64,000 nt of DNA from NCBI RefSeq assembly GCF_900880625.1, contig NZ_CAAHFB010000001.1, positions 310,001 through 374,000 on the forward strand, read 5' to 3'. The notes beneath the pieces were generated by a model. That model did no database searches. It was given only the letters and a program-made list of their open reading frames with translations, and was not told the origin of the DNA. This DNA is from Halorhabdus rudnickae (GTDB lineage: Archaea; Halobacteriota; Halobacteria; Halobacteriales; Haloarculaceae). Both the position numbers and the translations under genes were made by a program. Positions 9,725 to 18,647 of the stretch are shown piece by piece; the stretch's first letter is position 1, and each line of letters begins with the position of its first letter.

Positions 9725-9907
9725 TCAGAACTCGAAGGTGACGAAAAAGCGGTGATCGTTGGGACAGGCGGTTGCCCGGACCTTGACGCGCTCGGCATCG
9801 GGTTTTTCCCGTCGTTCAGTGGTGACCGACTTGACCGTTGCACTCTGTGGGAGCCCCATCTTCGCCCCGGCGCTGCACTCGGGACAGGCGAGCGTTTCGA
9901 TCCCCAT
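9725..9907 (-). CDS. Small zinc-ribbon-like protein
   Basis: 60 residues beginning MGIETLACPECSAGAKMGLP and ending RATACPNDHRFFVTFEF. A CxxC pair plus a later Cys/His (CPNDH) suggests a single zinc ribbon, a class very common among haloarchaeal small proteins. It is divergent from the brp gene. A much longer ORF on the same frame extends upstream into brp but is an overlap artefact. Role unknown; RNA, DNA or protein binding are all possible. Confidence 0.65.
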   Translation of the reverse strand: MGIETLACPECSAGAKMGLPQSATVKSVTTERREKPDAERVKVRATACPNDHRFFVTFEF

Positions 9908-9965
9908 CGTCACTGGCTTCGGCCGCCATCGGTTAAAACTCCTGCCCAGGGGCAGTTTCTCGGTG

Positions 9966-9980
9966 CCCCATATATTGGGT
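9966..9980. promoter_or_regulatory. TATA region of brp, overlapping a Bat-UAS-like sequence
   Basis: CATATATTGGG lies about 40 bases before the brp ATG at 10017 and is the likely TATA box. Read on the minus strand, 9966-9980 is ACCCAATATATGGGG, sharing 11 of 15 positions with the stronger motif before bop. Because it overlaps the TATA box and is inverted, a Bat site here is only suggestive. Confidence 0.4.
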
Positions 9981-10016
9981 ACCCGATTGACCGTATTGTC
10001 GCCAGAAAGTACGCGT

Positions 10017-11093
10017 ATGGAACAGACTGCGTACGGTAGACTCGGAACCGAGATCGGGTTCCGGGCCGGCGGAAACCGTCCTGTGACTGTTTCGCGGGTC
10101 GCGTTGTTCGTCGTGGCCGCGGCGTTCGCCCTCGCCGCCGCGGTCGGTGTTCGCCTCGGGTTGGAGGCACAGGCTGCCATCTATCTCTTCGGGATGGTCG
10201 CGCTGAACCTCCCACACGGCGGGTACGAACACTTCGACAACATTCGCCAGCGCGGACTCGATTTCCAGTGGCGGTACGTGGCCGCTTACCTCGCACTGAT
10301 CGCCGGTTTCATCGCGCTGTTCGTCCTCGCGCCGGTCGCCGGCCTCGCGCTCGCGATCACAGTCGCCGTCCTCAAGGGTGGCTACGGCGGCCTGGGCGTG
10401 ATGGACGCCGTGACGGGCAGTGGCCACCTCCGGACGGACCGCCAGCGACACCTCGCTTCGCTGGTCCGTGGTGGCACGGTCATGGCGGTCCCGATCGCCT
10501 TCTGGCCGGGCACCTTCGAGACGTTCAGCACCTACATGGTCGCCATCTTCCAGCCGGGGGGACTCGAGCGTATCACGTCGTACTTCAGTGTTACACGCCC
10601 ACTGATCGGCGTCGGGTTCGCCGCGCTCGTGGCCGTTCACCTCGGCGTGGGATACGCTCGCCGGGATGGAAGCGGGTCCTGGTTGGTCGACGCCGCCGAG
10701 ACGCTGCTGTTGGTCGTATACTTCGCGGTGGTCCCGGTGGTCGTCGCCGTTGGCCTGTACTTCCCGCTGTGGTACTCGATGCGACAGGTCGGCCGGGAGA
10801 TCGCCGTCGAGAACGACGTCCCCGAGAACGGCGGGATCCTCTCGGGGTACCTCGATAGCGACGACCCCCGCGTCGTGGCAATGACGGCCTGGGGCGTGTT
10901 GATAGCCGGCGCGGTTGCGACGGCGACAGTCGTGGGAGCGATCTATCTGGCGGCCACGCGTCCGCTCGGGGGCGCGCCGTTGCTCGCCGGTGGCGTGGCG
11001 TTCTGGAGCGTCGCGATCAGCATCATCGCCTTGCCACACGTCGTCGTCGGGTCCTTTTTGGACCGGGAACGTGGCATCTGGTACGTCCCATGA
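10017..11093 (+). CDS. brp: Brp/Blh beta-carotene 15,15'-dioxygenase
   Basis: Integral membrane enzyme that cleaves beta-carotene into two retinals, the chromophore for bacteriorhodopsin. 358 residues with many hydrophobic helices and the family histidine motifs LPHGGYEHFD near residue 65 and LPHVVVGSFLDRERGIWY at the C-terminus, where the histidines bind the catalytic iron. I start at ATG 10017 (MEQTAYGRLG), about 40 bases after a TATA box; upstream in-frame codons overlap the small zinc-ribbon gene. The stop overlaps the next start by 4 bases (ATGA), coupling it to the CrtI-family gene. Confidence 0.92.
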   Translation: MEQTAYGRLGTEIGFRAGGNRPVTVSRVALFVVAAAFALAAAVGVRLGLEAQAAIYLFGMVALNLPHGGYEHFDNIRQRGLDFQWRYVAAYLALIAGFIALFVLAPVAGLALAITVAVLKGGYGGLGVMDAVTGSGHLRTDRQRHLASLVRGGTVMAVPIAFWPGTFETFSTYMVAIFQPGGLERITSYFSVTRPLIGVGFAALVAVHLGVGYARRDGSGSWLVDAAETLLLVVYFAVVPVVVAVGLYFPLWYSMRQVGREIAVENDVPENGGILSGYLDSDDPRVVAMTAWGVLIAGAVATATVVGAIYLAATRPLGGAPLLAGGVAFWSVAISIIALPHVVVGSFLDRERGIWYVP

Positions 11094-12670
11094 CCCGATT
11101 CGACGGTAAGCCGCTGGCCGGCCAGTCGATCGACGTGATCGGCGGCGGGTTCGGTGGCCTGACGACGGCCGCCTATCTGGCCGATGCGGGCGCTGACGTG
11201 ACCGTCCTCGAACGGCAGGGTCGACTGGGCGGTGCTGCTAATCTCATCGAATCCGAAGGATTCCGATTCGATACCGGCCCGTCGTGGTACCTGATGCCCG
11301 ATGTCTTCGAACGGTTCTTCGCTCACTTCGACCGCACGCCGGATGCGTACTACACGCTCCGGCAACTTGATCCACAGTACCGGGTGTTCTACCGCGACAG
11401 CGAGCCAGTGCCGGGCGCTGGCAAACCCTATGGCGATGATCTCGCTCCGTGTGATTGGGTGACGATCACGCCCGACCGAGATCGAACCAAGCGGACCTTC
11501 GATGCCTACGAGCGCAGCGGCGGCGAGGCCTTCGATGCGTACCTTGCAGAAGCCCAGCACACCTACGACGTCGGGATGGAACACTTCGTTTACGCGGATC
11601 GGTCGCGCTTTCGGGACTTGCTCGATCTCGACGTGATCCGACTGGGGCCGGGATTGAAAATGCTCGGCTCGATGCAGGACCACGTCTCCGACTACGTCGA
11701 GAACCCGAAACTCCAGCAGCTGTTGCAGTACACGCTCGTGTTCCTGGGTGGCGCCCCCCAAAACACCCCCGCGCTGTACAATCTGATGGCTCACGTCGAC
11801 TTCAACCTCGGCGTCTACTATCCCGAGGGTGGGATGTACAGCGTCGTCGAGGGTCTGGTCGACCTCGGCGAGGAACTCGGGGTCACCTACCGAACGAATA
11901 CTGAAGTGACGGATATTCAGGAAACGACGACGGGGCTGGCGATACAGACCGACGCCGGGCGGCGGCGGGTCGACCGCGTCGTCTCGAACGCACCCCCTGC
12001 GTACGTCGAGCGCGAGTTGCTCTCACCGGCCAAACGTGACCACGACCTCGACCACTGGGAGAACCAGACGTATGCACCCTCTGCACTGCTGTTGTATCTC
12101 GGCGTCGAGGGCGACGTGGGACCGCTCGAACACCACTCGCTTGTCTTCCCCGAGGACTGGGACCCGCATTTCGAGGCCATCTTCGACGAGCCGGCGTGGC
12201 CGGACGATCCCGCCTACTACCTGGCCGTGCCGTCCCTGACAGACGATTCAGCCGCCCCCGACGGCCATCACGCCGTCGTCGCGCTGCTGCCGATCGCGCC
12301 GGGTCTGCCGGACACGCCACAACGCCGTCGGGAGTACCGGGACCTGATCCTCGAGGATCTGGCCGAGAACGTCGGCGTGGATCTTCGGGACCGGATCGTC
12401 TTCGAGGAGTCGATGTGTGTCGATGACTTCGCGGAACGGCTCAACTATCCCAAAGGAACGGCGCTGGGACTGGCACATACGCTCTTCCAGACGGGGCCGA
12501 TGCGGCCCTCCCACCGTGCCCGAAAGACGGACGGGTTGTACTACGTCGGCGGGTTTTCCTCGCCGGGCATCGGCGTTCCGATGGCGTTCATCAGCGGCGA
12601 GCACGCGGCGGACGCTGTCGTCGAAGACACCAGGGAGACCGGTTCGCTGGCGTCCGTTCTCGGGACCTGA
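11090..12670 (+). CDS. CrtI-family carotenoid (phytoene-type) desaturase
   Basis: FAD-dependent carotenoid oxidoreductase of 526 residues. The N-terminal dinucleotide fold reads IDVIGGGFGGLTTAAYLADAG with ERQGRLGGAA following. The C-terminal family signature YYVGGFSSPGIGVPMAFISG is intact, and the length is normal. Haloarchaea carry several paralogues (phytoene desaturation, 3,4-desaturation for bacterioruberin), and sequence alone does not tell me which reaction this one performs. Coupling to brp and nearness to crtY favour a step on the route to beta-carotene and retinal. Confidence 0.85.
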   Translation: MTRFDGKPLAGQSIDVIGGGFGGLTTAAYLADAGADVTVLERQGRLGGAANLIESEGFRFDTGPSWYLMPDVFERFFAHFDRTPDAYYTLRQLDPQYRVFYRDSEPVPGAGKPYGDDLAPCDWVTITPDRDRTKRTFDAYERSGGEAFDAYLAEAQHTYDVGMEHFVYADRSRFRDLLDLDVIRLGPGLKMLGSMQDHVSDYVENPKLQQLLQYTLVFLGGAPQNTPALYNLMAHVDFNLGVYYPEGGMYSVVEGLVDLGEELGVTYRTNTEVTDIQETTTGLAIQTDAGRRRVDRVVSNAPPAYVERELLSPAKRDHDLDHWENQTYAPSALLLYLGVEGDVGPLEHHSLVFPEDWDPHFEAIFDEPAWPDDPAYYLAVPSLTDDSAAPDGHHAVVALLPIAPGLPDTPQRRREYRDLILEDLAENVGVDLRDRIVFEESMCVDDFAERLNYPKGTALGLAHTLFQTGPMRPSHRARKTDGLYYVGGFSSPGIGVPMAFISGEHAADAVVEDTRETGSLASVLGT

Positions 12671-12720: not shown

Positions 12721-14724
12721 ATGAGCGAGCGAGCGGGCTCGCGGGTCGTCCTCCGAGTTGGCGAGAACCCGGCTGACGAGCCGTTCCCCGAAGAGGCGCT
12801 GTGCGAGGTTGCGGAGAACGTCGTCGTCGAGACCGAACGGGACTTCACGGCGGCGCTGGATCGGATCGAGTCCGGCGACGTCGACTGTGTGGTCGCCGAT
12901 CACGGATCCGGGTTCGACGGGATTTCTTTGCTCGAGAGCGTCCGCCGGACTCGCCCCGCCTTCCCGGTCATTGTACTCCCCGAAACGGTCGATGGCGATG
13001 TGAGTCGCCGGGCCGTCCGGGCCGACGCGACCGCCTTCGTTCCCCAGTCGGTCGAGAACTTCTCGGCGGCCGTCCGCGAGGAGTTGGTGGACGTGGTCCC
13101 AGTTCGCCAGGGGGATCGGGTGCGAATGCCGATCCACGACCGGACGGCGACCGAGGAACAGCGACTCAAGGAACGTGCCCTCGACGAGGCGCCGGTCGGC
13201 ATCACGATCGCCGACGCGACCGAGCCCGACGATCCGCTGATCTACGTCAACGACTCCTTCGAGGAAGTGACCGGCTACGAAAAAGAGGAGGCGATCGGCG
13301 TCAACTGTCGGTTCCTACAGGGCGAGGACACCGACGCTGAAACGGTCGCCGAGGTCCGTGAGGCTGTCGACAACGAGCAATCGGTGGCTGTCGAGTTACT
13401 GAACTACCGACCCGACGGGTCGACCTTCTGGAACAATCTGGCGATATCACCCATCCGCGACGACGAAGGCGCGGTGACGAACTACGTCGCATTCCAGCAG
13501 GACATTACCGAACGCAAGGAGGCCGAGGCCGCCATCAGAGAGGAACGCAAGCGTCTCGAACGCGTCCTTGATCGGGTCGAAGGCCTCGTCAGTGACCTCA
13601 CTGAGGTCCTTGTCCGGGCCGACGATCGGCCGGAAATTCATCGGCTGGCAGTCGATCGCTTCAACTCGGGGACGGAGTTCGACCAGGCCTGGATCGGCGA
13701 GTACGATCCAACTTCTAAGACGGTCACGATCGCAGAGTACATCGACTGCAGCCGCGATCCGATGACGATCGACATAGACGACGATCTGCCAGAGACGTCT
13801 GCACTCGCCCGGGCGATCGAAACAGGCAAGATACAGACCCTCTCGGCTGGCTCGGTCCCAGGGTCGTGGACCGACGAAACCGAGTACGCTGGTGGGGGCG
13901 TCGCGATCCCCTTGACGTATCGACGGACGACCTACGGTGTCCTGGCGGTCTTCGATACCGATGCCGACGCGTTCGACGAGACCGAACAGACGATCCTCGG
14001 GGCGCTTGGCCGGGTCATCGGATCGGCTATCAACGATGTCCTCAGCAAGCGGACCGTCACGGCAGACGTTACGATCGCCATTGAAGTGGAACTGTCGGAC
14101 TCGTCGCTGTTCCTGCTCGATCTGGCCGGCCGAGCCACGGAGGAGTTAGATTATCGCGGAATCCACGTCGGGGACGACGGGGCTGTTCGATTCCTGCTAG
14201 CCGTCGATACGGCCGACGAGGCGATCCTGCTTTCGGCACCCGACCGCTACGACGCCGTGACCGATGTCTCAGTGCTGTCGAACACTGACGGCGAACGCGT
14301 CCTCGAGTTAGTCGCACAGGGCGCGCCATTCGTCGATGCGCTTGCGACGTACGGCGCAGCGATCGAATCGGTTTCGATCGGCCAGTCGGGCGTGCAGTTG
14401 CGATTCCGGGTCGGGACCGAACAGAACGGCCGGGCCATCGTCGAGGAACTCGAAGCGATCTACGAAAGCGTCGAACTGCTCGCCTATCACGAAACGGAGA
14501 ACGAGGCGACGTCACCGCAGGCCTTCAGAGCCGCCGTCGAATCCGACCTGACCGATCGGCAACTCACGGCGCTCCGGACAGCATACGCCAGTGGTTTCTT
14601 CGAGTGGCCACGCGAGAGCGATGGCGATGATCTCGCCGACGCAATGGATGTCGTCCCCTCGACGTACTACCAGCATCTCCGCTCGGCCGAAAAGAAACTC
14701 GTCAGCGCCTTCTTCGAATCCTGA
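12721..14724 (+). CDS. bat: Bat-like transcription regulator: receiver-like, LOV/PAS, GAF and HTH_10 domains
   Basis: Regulator of 667 residues resembling bacterio-opsin activator Bat. Order: a receiver-like domain (about 10-120, with VVADHGSGFDG), a PAS domain (about 150-265), a GAF domain (about 285-450) and a C-terminal Bat-type helix-turn-helix (DLTDRQLTALRTAYASGFFE, then MDVVPSTYYQHLRSAEKKL). The PAS domain carries the LOV signature GVNCRFLQGEDTD with the flavin-adduct cysteine at about residue 196, plus NYRPDGSTFWNN and VAFQQDITE. It should therefore bind FMN and sense blue light. It lies between the desaturase and crtY, and bop is nearby. Control of these genes is inferred from Bat in Halobacterium. 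Confidence 0.87.
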   Translation: MSERAGSRVVLRVGENPADEPFPEEALCEVAENVVVETERDFTAALDRIESGDVDCVVADHGSGFDGISLLESVRRTRPAFPVIVLPETVDGDVSRRAVRADATAFVPQSVENFSAAVREELVDVVPVRQGDRVRMPIHDRTATEEQRLKERALDEAPVGITIADATEPDDPLIYVNDSFEEVTGYEKEEAIGVNCRFLQGEDTDAETVAEVREAVDNEQSVAVELLNYRPDGSTFWNNLAISPIRDDEGAVTNYVAFQQDITERKEAEAAIREERKRLERVLDRVEGLVSDLTEVLVRADDRPEIHRLAVDRFNSGTEFDQAWIGEYDPTSKTVTIAEYIDCSRDPMTIDIDDDLPETSALARAIETGKIQTLSAGSVPGSWTDETEYAGGGVAIPLTYRRTTYGVLAVFDTDADAFDETEQTILGALGRVIGSAINDVLSKRTVTADVTIAIEVELSDSSLFLLDLAGRATEELDYRGIHVGDDGAVRFLLAVDTADEAILLSAPDRYDAVTDVSVLSNTDGERVLELVAQGAPFVDALATYGAAIESVSIGQSGVQLRFRVGTEQNGRAIVEELEAIYESVELLAYHETENEATSPQAFRAAVESDLTDRQLTALRTAYASGFFEWPRESDGDDLADAMDVVPSTYYQHLRSAEKKLVSAFFES

Positions 14725-14914
14725 GTGGAAGTCCAGCCACCCGAGAACCGCTAGGCGCTCGACATTCCCCAACAGAATAGGTACGGCTTTGAGTCGGCTC
14801 CCCCTCCTACTATCAAAGAATGATCGACGGGACCGGAGCGGATCGGCAGCGACAACTGCGTAAGTGTCAGGGGGACGCCATCAGTCGCGATGGTCCCTCC
14901 CGTCTCTGAGGAGA
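14725..14914. other. 190-base gap between bat and crtY
   Basis: No credible ORF. On the minus strand 14768-14782 reads ACCTATTCTGTTGGG, matching all seven fixed positions of the Bat upstream consensus ACCnnACTnnTTnGG as I recall it. It is inverted relative to crtY and 133 bases from its start. About eight chance matches to those seven bases are expected in a window of this size, so this is weak. Confidence 0.35.
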
Positions 14915-15679
14915 ATGATAGAACCCATCAGCTATCTCGCCTTCGTACTCGCGTTCGTGGCCGCTCCGGTTCTCGTGGTAGCTGGGGCACTGCTCGTGAC
15001 CAAGCGATGGCACCGAGCACAGTTGTTCGGAGCGGGATTGTTGGTCGCCGTCGCGCTAACTTACACGCTGCCGTGGGACGACTATCTGATCCGGAGCGGC
15101 GTCTGGGAATACGGATCGACGCTCGTCGGCCGCGTGGGCGTCGTCCCCTACGAGGAGTTGCTGTTCGTCGCCGCCCAGACGGTCCTGACGGGCTTGTGGA
15201 CCACGCTCGTCGTTCGCCCGGACGGGTGCGGCCCGTCGGTCACCCGCCGACAGCGACTCGGTGGCGTCGCCGCGGGCCTGCTGGTGGGCGTCGCCGGGCT
15301 CGCATTGCTGTCGATCCCCTCGTCGCTGTACTTGGGGGCGATTCTCGCGTGGTCGGCCCCCGTCTTCGCCCTCCAGTGGGGCTTTGGCTGGCCGGTGCTC
15401 GTCCGCGCTCGCCGCTCTGTCGTCTTCGCGCTCGCGGTCCCGACGGCGTATCTCTGGGCCGTCGACAGACTGGCGATCGGGATCGGCCTGTGGACCTTCT
15501 CGGCCGAGCGCACGACAGGCATTGCACTTCTAGGATTGCCGATCGAGGAGGCGCTGTTTTTCCTCGTGACGAACGCCTTCCTCGTTCAGGGGCTGGTCCT
15601 GCTCGGGTGGGTCGTCGAACGCGACGTGTTGCCTTCCGTCGCCGACGCGATCCGGGACCTTCCGAGTCTGGTGGATTGA
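14915..15679 (+). CDS. crtY: Lycopene beta-cyclase (CrtYcd-type, membrane)
   Basis: Converts lycopene to beta-carotene, the substrate of Brp/Blh. 254 residues, almost entirely hydrophobic helices. It has two homologous halves, each with the PxEE signature (VPYEELLFV and LPIEEALFFLVTN), as in fused archaeal heterodimer-type cyclases. I start at ATG 14915 (MIEPISYLAF) because GAGGAGA lies immediately upstream and the longer frame adds a non-conserved basic stretch. Its neighbours brp, the CrtI-family gene and bat support the assignment. Confidence 0.92.
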   Translation: MIEPISYLAFVLAFVAAPVLVVAGALLVTKRWHRAQLFGAGLLVAVALTYTLPWDDYLIRSGVWEYGSTLVGRVGVVPYEELLFVAAQTVLTGLWTTLVVRPDGCGPSVTRRQRLGGVAAGLLVGVAGLALLSIPSSLYLGAILAWSAPVFALQWGFGWPVLVRARRSVVFALAVPTAYLWAVDRLAIGIGLWTFSAERTTGIALLGLPIEEALFFLVTNAFLVQGLVLLGWVVERDVLPSVADAIRDLPSLVD

Positions 15680-16028: not shown

Positions 16029-16424
16029 ATGACCACAGATGACGATCTTCCAACTGTCGAGGAAATCTATACTATTCATGATGAAATCATCCACATATAT
16101 GACCTGAAACACCCCGGCGTCCGTGATCGATTTGCCGACGAAAAGCTAGCACAATTAATCGAAGAAGCACGGGAATACGACGACGACTTTCAAAGGGCAG
16201 CAGTAATCTTGCGGAAACTCCCCTCGCTTCATGTGTTTGAGGATGGAAACAAGCGGACGGCTTTCCTTGTTGTCGTTGAATACCTTGATAGACGAAATCT
16301 TGAACCCGCGAAAAGTGGGGACATAGTTGAGCGTGTTATGAAGTGCCGGAAGCGATATTCTGTGGAAGAAATAGCGCGGTGGTTAGAGGATGGATCCATT
16401 GATGAAGATAAGCTCCGGCAATGA
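16029..16424 (+). CDS. Fic/Doc family protein, probable toxin
   Basis: 131 residues, close to the length of Doc (death-on-curing) toxins. The active-site motif HVFEDGNKRTAF starts at His68 and resembles the Doc form HxFxDxNKR more than the AMP-transferring Fic form HPFxxGNGR. Doc phosphorylates EF-Tu; Fic enzymes usually AMPylate. Which reaction applies here is not decided by the motif. No Phd-like antitoxin precedes it. A 37-codon ORF downstream is the only candidate partner. Low GC and its place in a disrupted gene point to horizontal acquisition. Confidence 0.85.
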   Translation: MTTDDDLPTVEEIYTIHDEIIHIYDLKHPGVRDRFADEKLAQLIEEAREYDDDFQRAAVILRKLPSLHVFEDGNKRTAFLVVVEYLDRRNLEPAKSGDIVERVMKCRKRYSVEEIARWLEDGSIDEDKLRQ

Positions 16425-16679: not shown

Positions 16680-16942
16680 CTGTTTCACCCCCATTTAACC
16701 GCCCTCTTGTTGCTGTGTAGTATTAACAGCCTATGACGGCTATTACCGGAGATCGGTAAACTGCCCTTACGCGACAACGGTTATTGCTCATGCGTGAGTC
16801 TGTTTTCTGTCAAATTCCACGGGTATGTGGGATGTTTCAAAATCTATTAGAAGACAGATATTGGTAACGCCGATATTACGCTGTCTTGCGATTCGCCACA
16901 ATCCGCTATGGGGAAAATAAAGATAATTTGAATACTGGGGTA
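16680..16942. other. 263-base noncoding end of the island
   Basis: AT-rich, with no credible ORF. It ends where coding sequence of the broken MFS gene begins. No terminal repeat or insertion-sequence end recognised. Confidence 0.5.
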
Positions 16943-17670
16943 TCAATGACTGCCATCTTCCCGAAGCGGAACGCGAAGCGAAAGCCGACCAACGCCCGGA
17001 GCGTCGGCAGGTTCAACAGCGACCGGAAGGCGTCAATGCCGCCCGTCTCTTCGGGCGCCGTCTGTCCCCCAGGATCGTCACGCAGGAACAGGGCGACGAG
17101 CAGGAACGAGCCGAGCGTGATCGCGGTCAACACCAGGTACGGCACGGTGAACCCGTAGGCGTACAGGAGATAGCCGCCCACGAGGTCGCCGAGCAGCGAG
17201 GAGAACGACGCGACCTGGTTGTACGAACCTAGCCAGAGACCCTGCTCTGCATCGGGACTGATCTCTCCGACGATCGTCGCACCGGTGATCCAGAGGACGC
17301 TGGCTCCAAGCCTCTGGATCATCCGGAACAGGATGACGTGGACCGCGCTGTCTGCGACGATGAATCCGACGAAGACGGCGACATTGATCAGGAAGCCGGT
17401 CAGCAGATACCGCTTCGCGTTGCCGGTATCGACGTATCTCCCGAACGGGAGGACGACCAGCAACTGGACGACCGCAAAGGCCGTCCCGAAAAGCCCTTCG
17501 ACGAACCCGGTCGTCTCGAAGAGATCGACGTACAGCGCCAGGGCGATCAGGATCGTCGAGTACGCCTGACTCCGGGCGAAGGCCGTGCCCGCAAGCGCGA
17601 GGAACTCTCTATCCCCGAGCAATTCGATCGATCGAAACCGTGTCACAGGAGCCAGTTCCCGCAAGTCCAC
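16943..17670 (-). pseudogene. 5' part of an MFS transporter gene, truncated by the island
   Basis: About 242 residues of a major facilitator superfamily transporter: SIELLGDREFLALAGTAFAR, LLVVLPFGRYVDTGNAKRYL (the loop 2-3 motif), then helices up to the interdomain linker and FRFAFRFGKMAV. After that the frame enters island DNA and stops at 16906 with unrelated residues. MFS proteins need about 12 helices; only about 6-7 remain. The GTG start at 17670 is uncertain. The stranded last helix is at 15709-15822. About 150 codons of the second half seem lost. Confidence 0.78.
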
Positions 17671-17738: not shown

Positions 17739-18515
17739 TCAGTCAGCCGGTTGTGCCGACGTGCTGCCGGTCGAGACAGCGCCGTCGTCGAGGACGCTGT
17801 GGCTCCGCAGCAGGATGACCCCGAAGATCACCTTCGCGGTCACGTCGAGCACGGCGAAGCCGGCGGTCTCTGGGCCGATCCCGATGACGCCGAGGCCTTC
17901 GGTGCCGACGATCCACCAGACCGGGTACACCAGCCAGAGGACGGCGATCATGTTCCGGAGAAGCTCGAACGTACTCCTGGTGTCGGGCGACAACTCCGCC
18001 GCTCTCGCCGTCAGCGTCGAGAACAGGACATACAGCAACACCAACAGGAAGCCGGTGGAGACGCCCCACCAGAGGATACGGACGCCCCCGACGCCCATCC
18101 CGGCTGCACCGCTGAACGTCAGGGTCGCGACCGCGCCGGTGAGGATCATCAACACGTCGAGTCCGACGAGCGTCCCGGTCGTGTTGCGGTCAGCGCCCGC
18201 GAGTAGCGCGATGTCGTACAGCAACAGCGGCGTCGTCAGGATCCAGTCGGTGTATCGCGGCCAGTAAATCTCCTCGGGAACACCGTTGAGTTCCGTCCCG
18301 AGGATGTTCTCGACGACTTCGATCGGGAGCTTCCCGAAACCCGTTGCCATCGCCAGGTAGTTGACGAAGGCGATCGCCGCGATGAACGTCGTCACGACGT
18401 AGAACTTCTTTCGCCGGGAATCCCGTACGTTCCATCCTGTCGCGATGAAGTACAGCATTCCCAGGAACATTCCTGCCGTGCCTGCCCACAGCGATATCGT
18501 GGTTAGGTTTGCCAT
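17739..18515 (-). CDS. bop: Bacteriorhodopsin, light-driven proton pump
   Basis: Seven-helix retinal protein of 258 residues. Helix C reads [22 protein letters not shown], giving Arg87, Asp90 and Asp101, which match Arg82, Asp85 (acceptor) and Asp96 (donor) of bacteriorhodopsin. The release glutamates are present in GTEG and PET (Glu194/Glu204 equivalents). Helix [16 protein letters not shown] places the retinal lysine at 228. This residue set marks an outward proton pump rather than a chloride pump or sensor. Its neighbours supply retinal (brp, crtY) and control (bat). A Bat-type upstream sequence precedes it. Confidence 0.95.
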
Positions 18516-18542
18516 GCTACAGGTTAGGACTTGGCTCGGAAC

Positions 18543-18573
18543 TCGGGTAACGGTCGTACCAAATCTATTCGGT
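18543..18573 (-). promoter_or_regulatory. Candidate Bat-type upstream activating sequence and TATA of bop
   Basis: On the minus strand 18573-18559 reads ACCGAATAGATTTGG, matching every fixed position of the Halobacterium bop UAS consensus ACCnnactnnTTnGG (as I recall it). It sits 44-58 bases before the bop ATG, just upstream of a weak TATA-like GTTACC near -30. That is the published arrangement of the bop promoter. Confidence 0.55.
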
Positions 18574-18647
18574 AATACATGCCGCTATCCGTCGAGTGAG
18601 AGACGTACCGACAGGGTTTCACCGATCCGGGCCGTGGAGTATCTCGA

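Follow-up and report, generated by a model that had tools for sequence, protein, structure and literature searches.

A Bat-type activator with a complete LOV domain at the bacteriorhodopsin locus of Halorhabdus rudnickae, a candidate blue-light switch

The route by which light reaches the bop genes of haloarchaea has been an open question for decades: bop of Halobacterium salinarum is light-induced, though its activator Bat lacks the photoactive cysteine. A 64,000-nucleotide stretch of the Halorhabdus rudnickae genome (contig NZ_CAAHFB010000001.1, positions 310,001 to 374,000; “the window”) carries, at the same locus, an orthologue with a complete sensor (bat, 12721 to 14724, + strand), which makes the question addressable by a one-codon swap between sister proteins. 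From sequence comparison and structure models we propose, with a probability of roughly 0.7, that the window Bat is a blue-light-sensing activator controlling the whole bacteriorhodopsin and retinal gene set, together with the co-regulator Brz. Archaeal LOV-HTH proteins and a Cys-less (Pro) Bat LOV domain are already known; what is new is a Cys-bearing Bat at the bop locus. No report of such a protein in a brz-brp-bop locus, or of loss of the Cys inside Bat, was found in the open-licence literature.

The LOV domain of the window Bat

A preliminary description of this DNA had assigned the open reading frame (ORF) to a Bat-like activator whose PAS domain holds a complete LOV motif. The ORF, its strand, the three motifs quoted there, and Cys196 are all present: GVNCRFLQGEDTD spans residues 193 to 205 and includes GVNCRFLQ (193 to 200), a GXNCRFLQ-type motif with Cys196; NYRPDGSTFWNN spans residues 228 to 239; and FQQDITE spans residues 258 to 264. 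The core flavin contacts N228, N238, and Q259 and the phosphate arginine R213 are all present, with contact roles as in AsLOV2. Pfam assigned PAS_9 to residues 158 to 264. Residues 131 to 270 matched solved proteins down to an E value of 6e-32, a similarity that chance does not account for, with 157 Protein Data Bank sequences at E≤0.001, and the best 60 of these 157 were mostly phototropin, aureochrome, YtvA, and other LOV proteins or engineered LOV fusions. The best NCBIfam match, the YtvA blue-light photoreceptor model (1.7e-46), falls under the whole-protein cut-off of that model because only the LOV part is common to the two proteins; the effector of bacterial YtvA is a STAS domain, and YtvA has no DNA-binding domain. 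An AlphaFold2 model of the LOV domain only, built from 56 sequences, had a mean predicted local distance difference test score (pLDDT) of 92.9, and all 50 Foldseek matches listed for it were LOV structures. Judged by sequence and modeled fold, the PAS domain of the window Bat is thus a complete LOV domain resembling photoreceptors, and this part of the preliminary description is upheld. The protein has the REC-PAS-GAF-BAT-HTH_10 layout of the Bat type, with a receiver marginally under the Pfam cut-off.

Archaeal LOV-HTH proteins, some with a Bat-like layout, were surveyed in 2014 (PMC4844311), and the window Bat fits this kind; in the available part of the survey, the Cys-bearing form is not tied to a brz-brp-crtI-bat-bop locus or to operators. 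BAT-LOV* (Yee et al. 2015, PMC4682037) is likewise described as a haloarchaeal Bat LOV domain with receiver, GAF, and HTH domains, but it has Pro where the window domain has Cys. It resembles a Pro group in our comparison (L144, L145, and L168), which represents a separate loss, and the published protein has Trp172 sixteen residues before Pro188, a spacing identical in L144. Because Cys196 is present, a Cys-less redox LOV* identity for the window Bat is ruled out. The divergent receiver of Bat has already been published (PMC5847659). A photocycle in 3 M salt is reported for an archaeal LOV domain whose motif is of the GXNCRFLQ type (PMC12202551). ALovD-1 from Lake Diamante, for which that paper gives a photocycle in high salt, is like the window domain archaeal and equipped with the adduct Cys, but it belongs to a PAS histidine kinase, whereas the window LOV domain belongs to a transcription activator.

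NCRFLQ motifs occur only twice in the whole genome, in Bat and in a multi-PAS kinase, and Bat is therefore one of two candidate LOV photoreceptors. The other motif lies ∼28 kb past the window (L202, 544 to 3960), in a GAF, multi-PAS kinase-like protein.

Position 196 and the ancestry of the cysteine

The window protein (query P0001) had matches in all 391 genomes of the class examined. A scan of genome contigs had returned one locus only, with a bacterial LOV domain, and the comparison was instead built on whole genomes. It comprised 40 Bat-anchored regions of 20 kb from near the top of the match list, some near-duplicates being skipped, a set that leans to window-like proteins; 57 regions anchored on the retinal dioxygenase, hand-picked among the matches listed for spread over genera; and three further regions (G021 and two places with a His motif). 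A protein with LOV and HTH_10 domains was found in 15 of the 57 dioxygenase regions (11 with Cys, 3 with Pro, and L170 without the motif columns) and in none of the remaining 42. L170 was dropped, as was L116, whose gene is broken across two frames and whose region also gave a false match, leaving 55 proteins for the trees.

Residue 196 is Cys in 42 of these proteins, His in 10, and Pro in 3. Residue 213, presumably the one that holds the phosphate of flavin mononucleotide (FMN), is Arg in 38, Lys in 1, and Ala in 3 of the Cys proteins (39/42 Arg or Lys) and is neither Arg nor Lys in any of 14 Cys-less proteins (11 His, including L116, and 3 Pro). With the Cys column masked in the support run, the window protein falls into a clade of 11 proteins, all with Cys (support, 100/99), whose sister (99/95) is a clade of 10 proteins, all with His (100/100). 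The latter is labeled Halobacterium type by gene order; L043, for example, has the order bop, brz, brp, bat, as known from Halobacterium. The Cys protein L070 branches just outside the two clades, and every branch beyond them, except the Pro group, carries Cys. Since the window and His clades lie among Cys-bearing Bats, Cys is probably ancestral, and two losses, one to His and one to Pro, are the simplest history. A tree of the post-LOV part, rooted with eight non-LOV paralogues, again placed the His and Pro groups inside Cys lineages, although two of these paralogues are placed within the ingroup, where long branches come together.

This history argues against the Cys-less Bat as an ancestral redox sensor and suggests that the textbook redox-type Bat switch descends from a true light sensor. 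It thereby bears on the proposal, made in the literature, of an origin of LOV photoreceptors in Cys-less redox flavoproteins (PMC4682037), as the Cys-less forms look derived in the Bat family. That idea would allow the Cys to have been regained in the window clade from a Cys-less ancestor. We regard such a regain as the least credible of the readings considered here: it is disfavored by the 55-row trees and by the post-LOV tree, the basal L070 and all branches but the Pro group carry Cys, two changes suffice if Cys is ancestral, and a regain would require the joint return of Cys and Arg213.

In the window clade, N195, Cys196, R197, F198, L199, Q200, R213, N228, N238, and Q259 are invariant (11/11 proteins), and the best-conserved Bat domains are LOV and HTH_10 (mean pairwise identity of 0.755 and 0.85, respectively, versus 0.55 for REC, 0.52 for GAF, and 0.50 for BAT). 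The PAS domain of H. salinarum Bat is described as lacking the LOV Cys (PMC4844311), and Halobacterium-type orthologues have His and lack Arg213; the window Bat has both Cys196 and Arg213. The rest of the cage is nevertheless kept: Asn195, Arg197, Gln200, Asn228, Asn238, and Gln259 are invariant in alignment A1 (11 window-clade, 10 His, and 9 further proteins), and the His-clade LOV domains therefore probably still bind flavin. For a Pro-type Bat LOV domain, flavin binding has been shown (PMC4682037). Loss of Cys and Arg213 in the Halobacterium-type clade fits a shift to redox-led sensing. In the degenerate receiver, which has no Lys at 109, 10 of 11 window-clade Bats retain the likely phosphoacceptor Asp60 (12898 to 12900), whereas every one of the 10 His-clade Bats has Thr or Val at this position; a joint change of receiver and LOV features may therefore have taken place.

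The window Bat is, by sequence, an orthologue of the Halobacterium-type bop activator, because its clade joins the His clade at 99/95 and Brz is found in both. The preliminary description was thus right to place a Bat-like activator beside retinal genes, here in a brp-crtI-bat locus. H. salinarum Bat has the same domain layout, brp-bat linkage, Brz, and bop target, and the window Bat is linked to brp, brz, and bop as the known Bat is; each of the 10 His proteins has bop, brp, or both no more than 5 kb away. Brz (E≤1e-3) was found in all 10 window-clade regions besides the window, in 9 of 10 His regions (L049, the exception, holds only fragments of brz), in L116, and, weakly (E of 5e-5), in L070, and it was found in none of the 19 other Bat-anchored and none of the 57 dioxygenase-anchored regions. 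In H. salinarum, the brz gene is located between brp and bop and encodes a zinc-finger protein of 60 amino acids; papers on it report that brz deletion strongly lowers bop mRNA and that Brz is needed for normal bop expression (PMC2253796, PMC3184054). Control by “one cytoplasmic protein”, as first described, is consequently not borne out in that form: a brz gene adjoins in the same locus and had been overlooked.

His-motif matches occurred in 14 of 391 genomes: 10 form the His clade, G021 has L116, and G041, G288, and G317 make up the rest. The His-motif regions of G041 and G317 (L174 and L175) had no match to gene models. Positions 1 to 4300 of L116 hold a Halobacterium-type bop-brz-brp-bat cluster in which the LOV part and the BAT/HTH part of a His-type Bat occupy separate reading frames, either a broken gene or an assembly error.

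Candidate operators, mechanism, and competing readings

The bop promoter contains an 18-base palindrome, TACCGAATAGATTTGGTA, which matches the degenerate form TACCNAATNNNTTNGGTA exactly in 7 of 7 genus genomes. A matrix was trained on the seven genus bop sites, which makes the bop result within the genus circular, and the threshold for a site was P<0.05 relative to windows of equal size from the locus. Matrix sites were present at 8 of 8 bop promoters of the His clade, in the brz/brp gap of 8 of 11 window-clade loci, and, in the His clade, before brz in 4 of 9 and before brp in 4 of 7; directly upstream of bat there were none (0/11 window clade, 0/10 His clade). In the whole genome, TACCNAATNNNTTNGGTA is matched exactly in two places only, at bop and 118 nucleotides before the phytoene synthase gene crtB, and the crtB site recurs in 6 of 7 genus genomes. 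With one mismatch allowed, the seven genus genomes gave 36 strand hits versus 6 for the reversed pattern. With sites at bop, brz/brp, crtY, and crtB, each of crtB, crtI, crtY, brp, and bop is thus preceded by a site, directly or before its presumed operon. The H. salinarum activator has sites at bop, brp, and crtB1, according to a review (PMC1447603). These patterns support the palindrome as a shared operator-like site of bop and the retinal and carotenoid genes, which are predicted Bat targets, in line with the targets first proposed.

In the bop-uvrA gap (18516 to 18647), the palindrome also faces the divergent uvrA gene, and in three of three sister-genus loci examined (L038, L040, and L041), all without bop there, a similar palindrome before uvrA scores highest in the 20-kb region. 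Light and DNA repair may be linked through this arrangement, or the site may serve another divergent gene, seen on the other side in L227.

In the proposed mechanism, the LOV domain would bind FMN, blue light would produce a covalent Cys196-flavin adduct, and the signal would reach HTH_10 by way of Gln259, the helix that follows the LOV domain, and the GAF/BAT region. Bat, as the presumed binder of the palindromes, would then act with Brz before bop, brz/brp-crtI-bat, crtY, and crtB, and all dedicated bacteriorhodopsin and retinal genes would answer to blue light, the predicted sign being activation. Several observations weigh against this. H. salinarum bop is light-induced (PMC3184054) though the Bat of that organism is reported without the LOV Cys (PMC4844311), so an adduct is not indispensable for a light effect, and the Cys of Bat may be less important than assumed. 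In a full-length AlphaFold model, the N-terminal half of the LOV domain is poor (block means of 48 to 63) and signal transfer is not visible, and two pocket residues, Ala164 and Ala257, are not those most frequent at their positions in the set. When two mismatches are tolerated, the window's genome has 23 palindromes versus 19 for the reversed control, hardly an enrichment, and the brp and crtY sites therefore rest on conservation; the literature consensus of the bop operator, in the form used here, shows no enrichment in the window (7 sites versus 11 expected). The palindrome also stands in a convergent gap beside the aRF1 release factor gene in five genus genomes (L200 at 4520; L231, L237, L242, and L243 at 1501), where it is maybe a terminator hairpin or another target; the other neighbor, where seen, is a small CxxC zinc-protein gene.

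Light control had initially been set against “redox/oxygen sensing alone”, a contrast not supported as worded, as reduction is another way in which flavin LOV domains can signal (PMC4682037). The window LOV domain might bind flavin and be able to form the adduct yet serve in the cell mainly as a redox or oxygen sensor, as in H. salinarum, with light a minor or accidental input. Low-oxygen induction is mediated by Bat in that organism (PMC2253796), chemical reduction changes the conformation of a Cys-less Bat LOV domain (PMC4682037), and retention of the flavin cage and the signaling Gln in the His clade means that redox sensing may be common to all Bats. We nonetheless hold this to be unlikely, as Cys and Arg213 are invariant throughout the window clade and both are gone in two separate Cys-less groups; that they are kept or lost jointly points to selection on photochemistry where the Cys is kept. 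A blue-light sensor with its main targets elsewhere (e.g., stress or DNA repair genes), for which the retinal cluster is a mere neighbor, appears very unlikely: the position of the bop-gap palindrome opposite uvrA and the sister-genus sites before uvrA speak for it, but brz, brp, crtI, and bop are arranged as in the known Bat locus, and the distant crtB has the palindrome as well.

If the window Bat is indeed a light-sensing activator of the retinal genes, such an archaeal protein, driven by blue light, tolerant of salt, and acting at a short palindromic operator, would make a useful gene switch for haloarchaea. A wider scenario, to which sequence comparison leads us to give even odds, is that purple-membrane control began as LOV blue-light photoreception. 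The Bat-Brz-Brp system of this lineage would still form the adduct and drive the full retinal and opsin gene set, the Halobacterium Bat would be a secondarily blinded reader of flavin redox state, the Cys-less Bats would be derived, and the bop/uvrA palindrome would tie blue light to DNA repair.

Features of the locus

Table 1. Features of the bop locus (positions in the window)
Feature	Position	Strand	Basis
brz, 60-aa zinc-ribbon co-regulator, divergent from brp	9725..9907	-	Pfam PF23454 Zn_ribbon_Brz, E 1.9e-22
Operator-like palindrome TGCCCCATATATTGGGTA between brz and brp	9964..9981	.	Matrix trained on bop promoters; two mismatches versus bop-type palindrome
brp, beta-carotene 15,15'-dioxygenase (retinal formation)	10017..11093	+	TIGR03753, E 1.6e-62; PF15461, 1.3e-68
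crtI-type phytoene desaturase	11090..12670	+	NF058655 CrtID, above cut-off
bat, REC(degenerate)-LOV-GAF-BAT-HTH_10 activator, 667 aa	12721..14724	+	ORF and Pfam
Degenerate receiver domain of Bat, residues 28-108	12802..13044	+	PF00072, 28.0 bits, under cut-off 30.2
LOV domain of Bat, residues 150-264	13168..13512	+	Pfam, NCBIfam, PDB matches, AlphaFold2 model, Foldseek
Codon TGT, predicted adduct-forming Cys196 of Bat	13306..13308	+	
GAF domain of Bat, residues 302-437	13624..14031	+	PF13185 (GAF_2), 9.6e-9
BAT domain of Bat, residues 449-604	14065..14532	+	PF15915, 7.3e-29
HTH_10 DNA-binding domain of Bat, residues 610-661	14548..14703	+	PF04967, 4e-20
Operator-like palindrome upstream of crtY	14766..14783	.	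Site in 7/7 genus loci, window p 0.028-0.043
crtY-type lycopene cyclase; start may be 14915	14864..15679	+	TIGR03462, 5.3e-36 in two stretches; PF18916, 1.2e-7
bop, bacteriorhodopsin-type proton pump	17739..18515	-	PF01036, 5.8e-63
Palindrome TACCGAATAGATTTGGTA, 42 nt before bop, 73 nt before divergent uvrA	18557..18574	.	7/7 genus genomes

The brp start was inferred from an aligned conserved ATG, the ORF itself opening at 9759. The crtI gene overlaps brp by 4 bases, and bat begins 50 bases past crtI. Downstream of bat follow, in order, crtY, a Fic gene, part of a major facilitator superfamily (MFS) gene, bop, and the divergent uvrA. The pump residues of bop were read from its sequence. The MFS transporter ORF (16906 to 17670, − strand) covers only positions 3 to 224 of a 347-position profile and looks like a remnant; it adjoins the Fic gene (16029 to 16424), in a stretch with lower G+C (0.544), and among the seven genus loci it is present in the window and L033 only.
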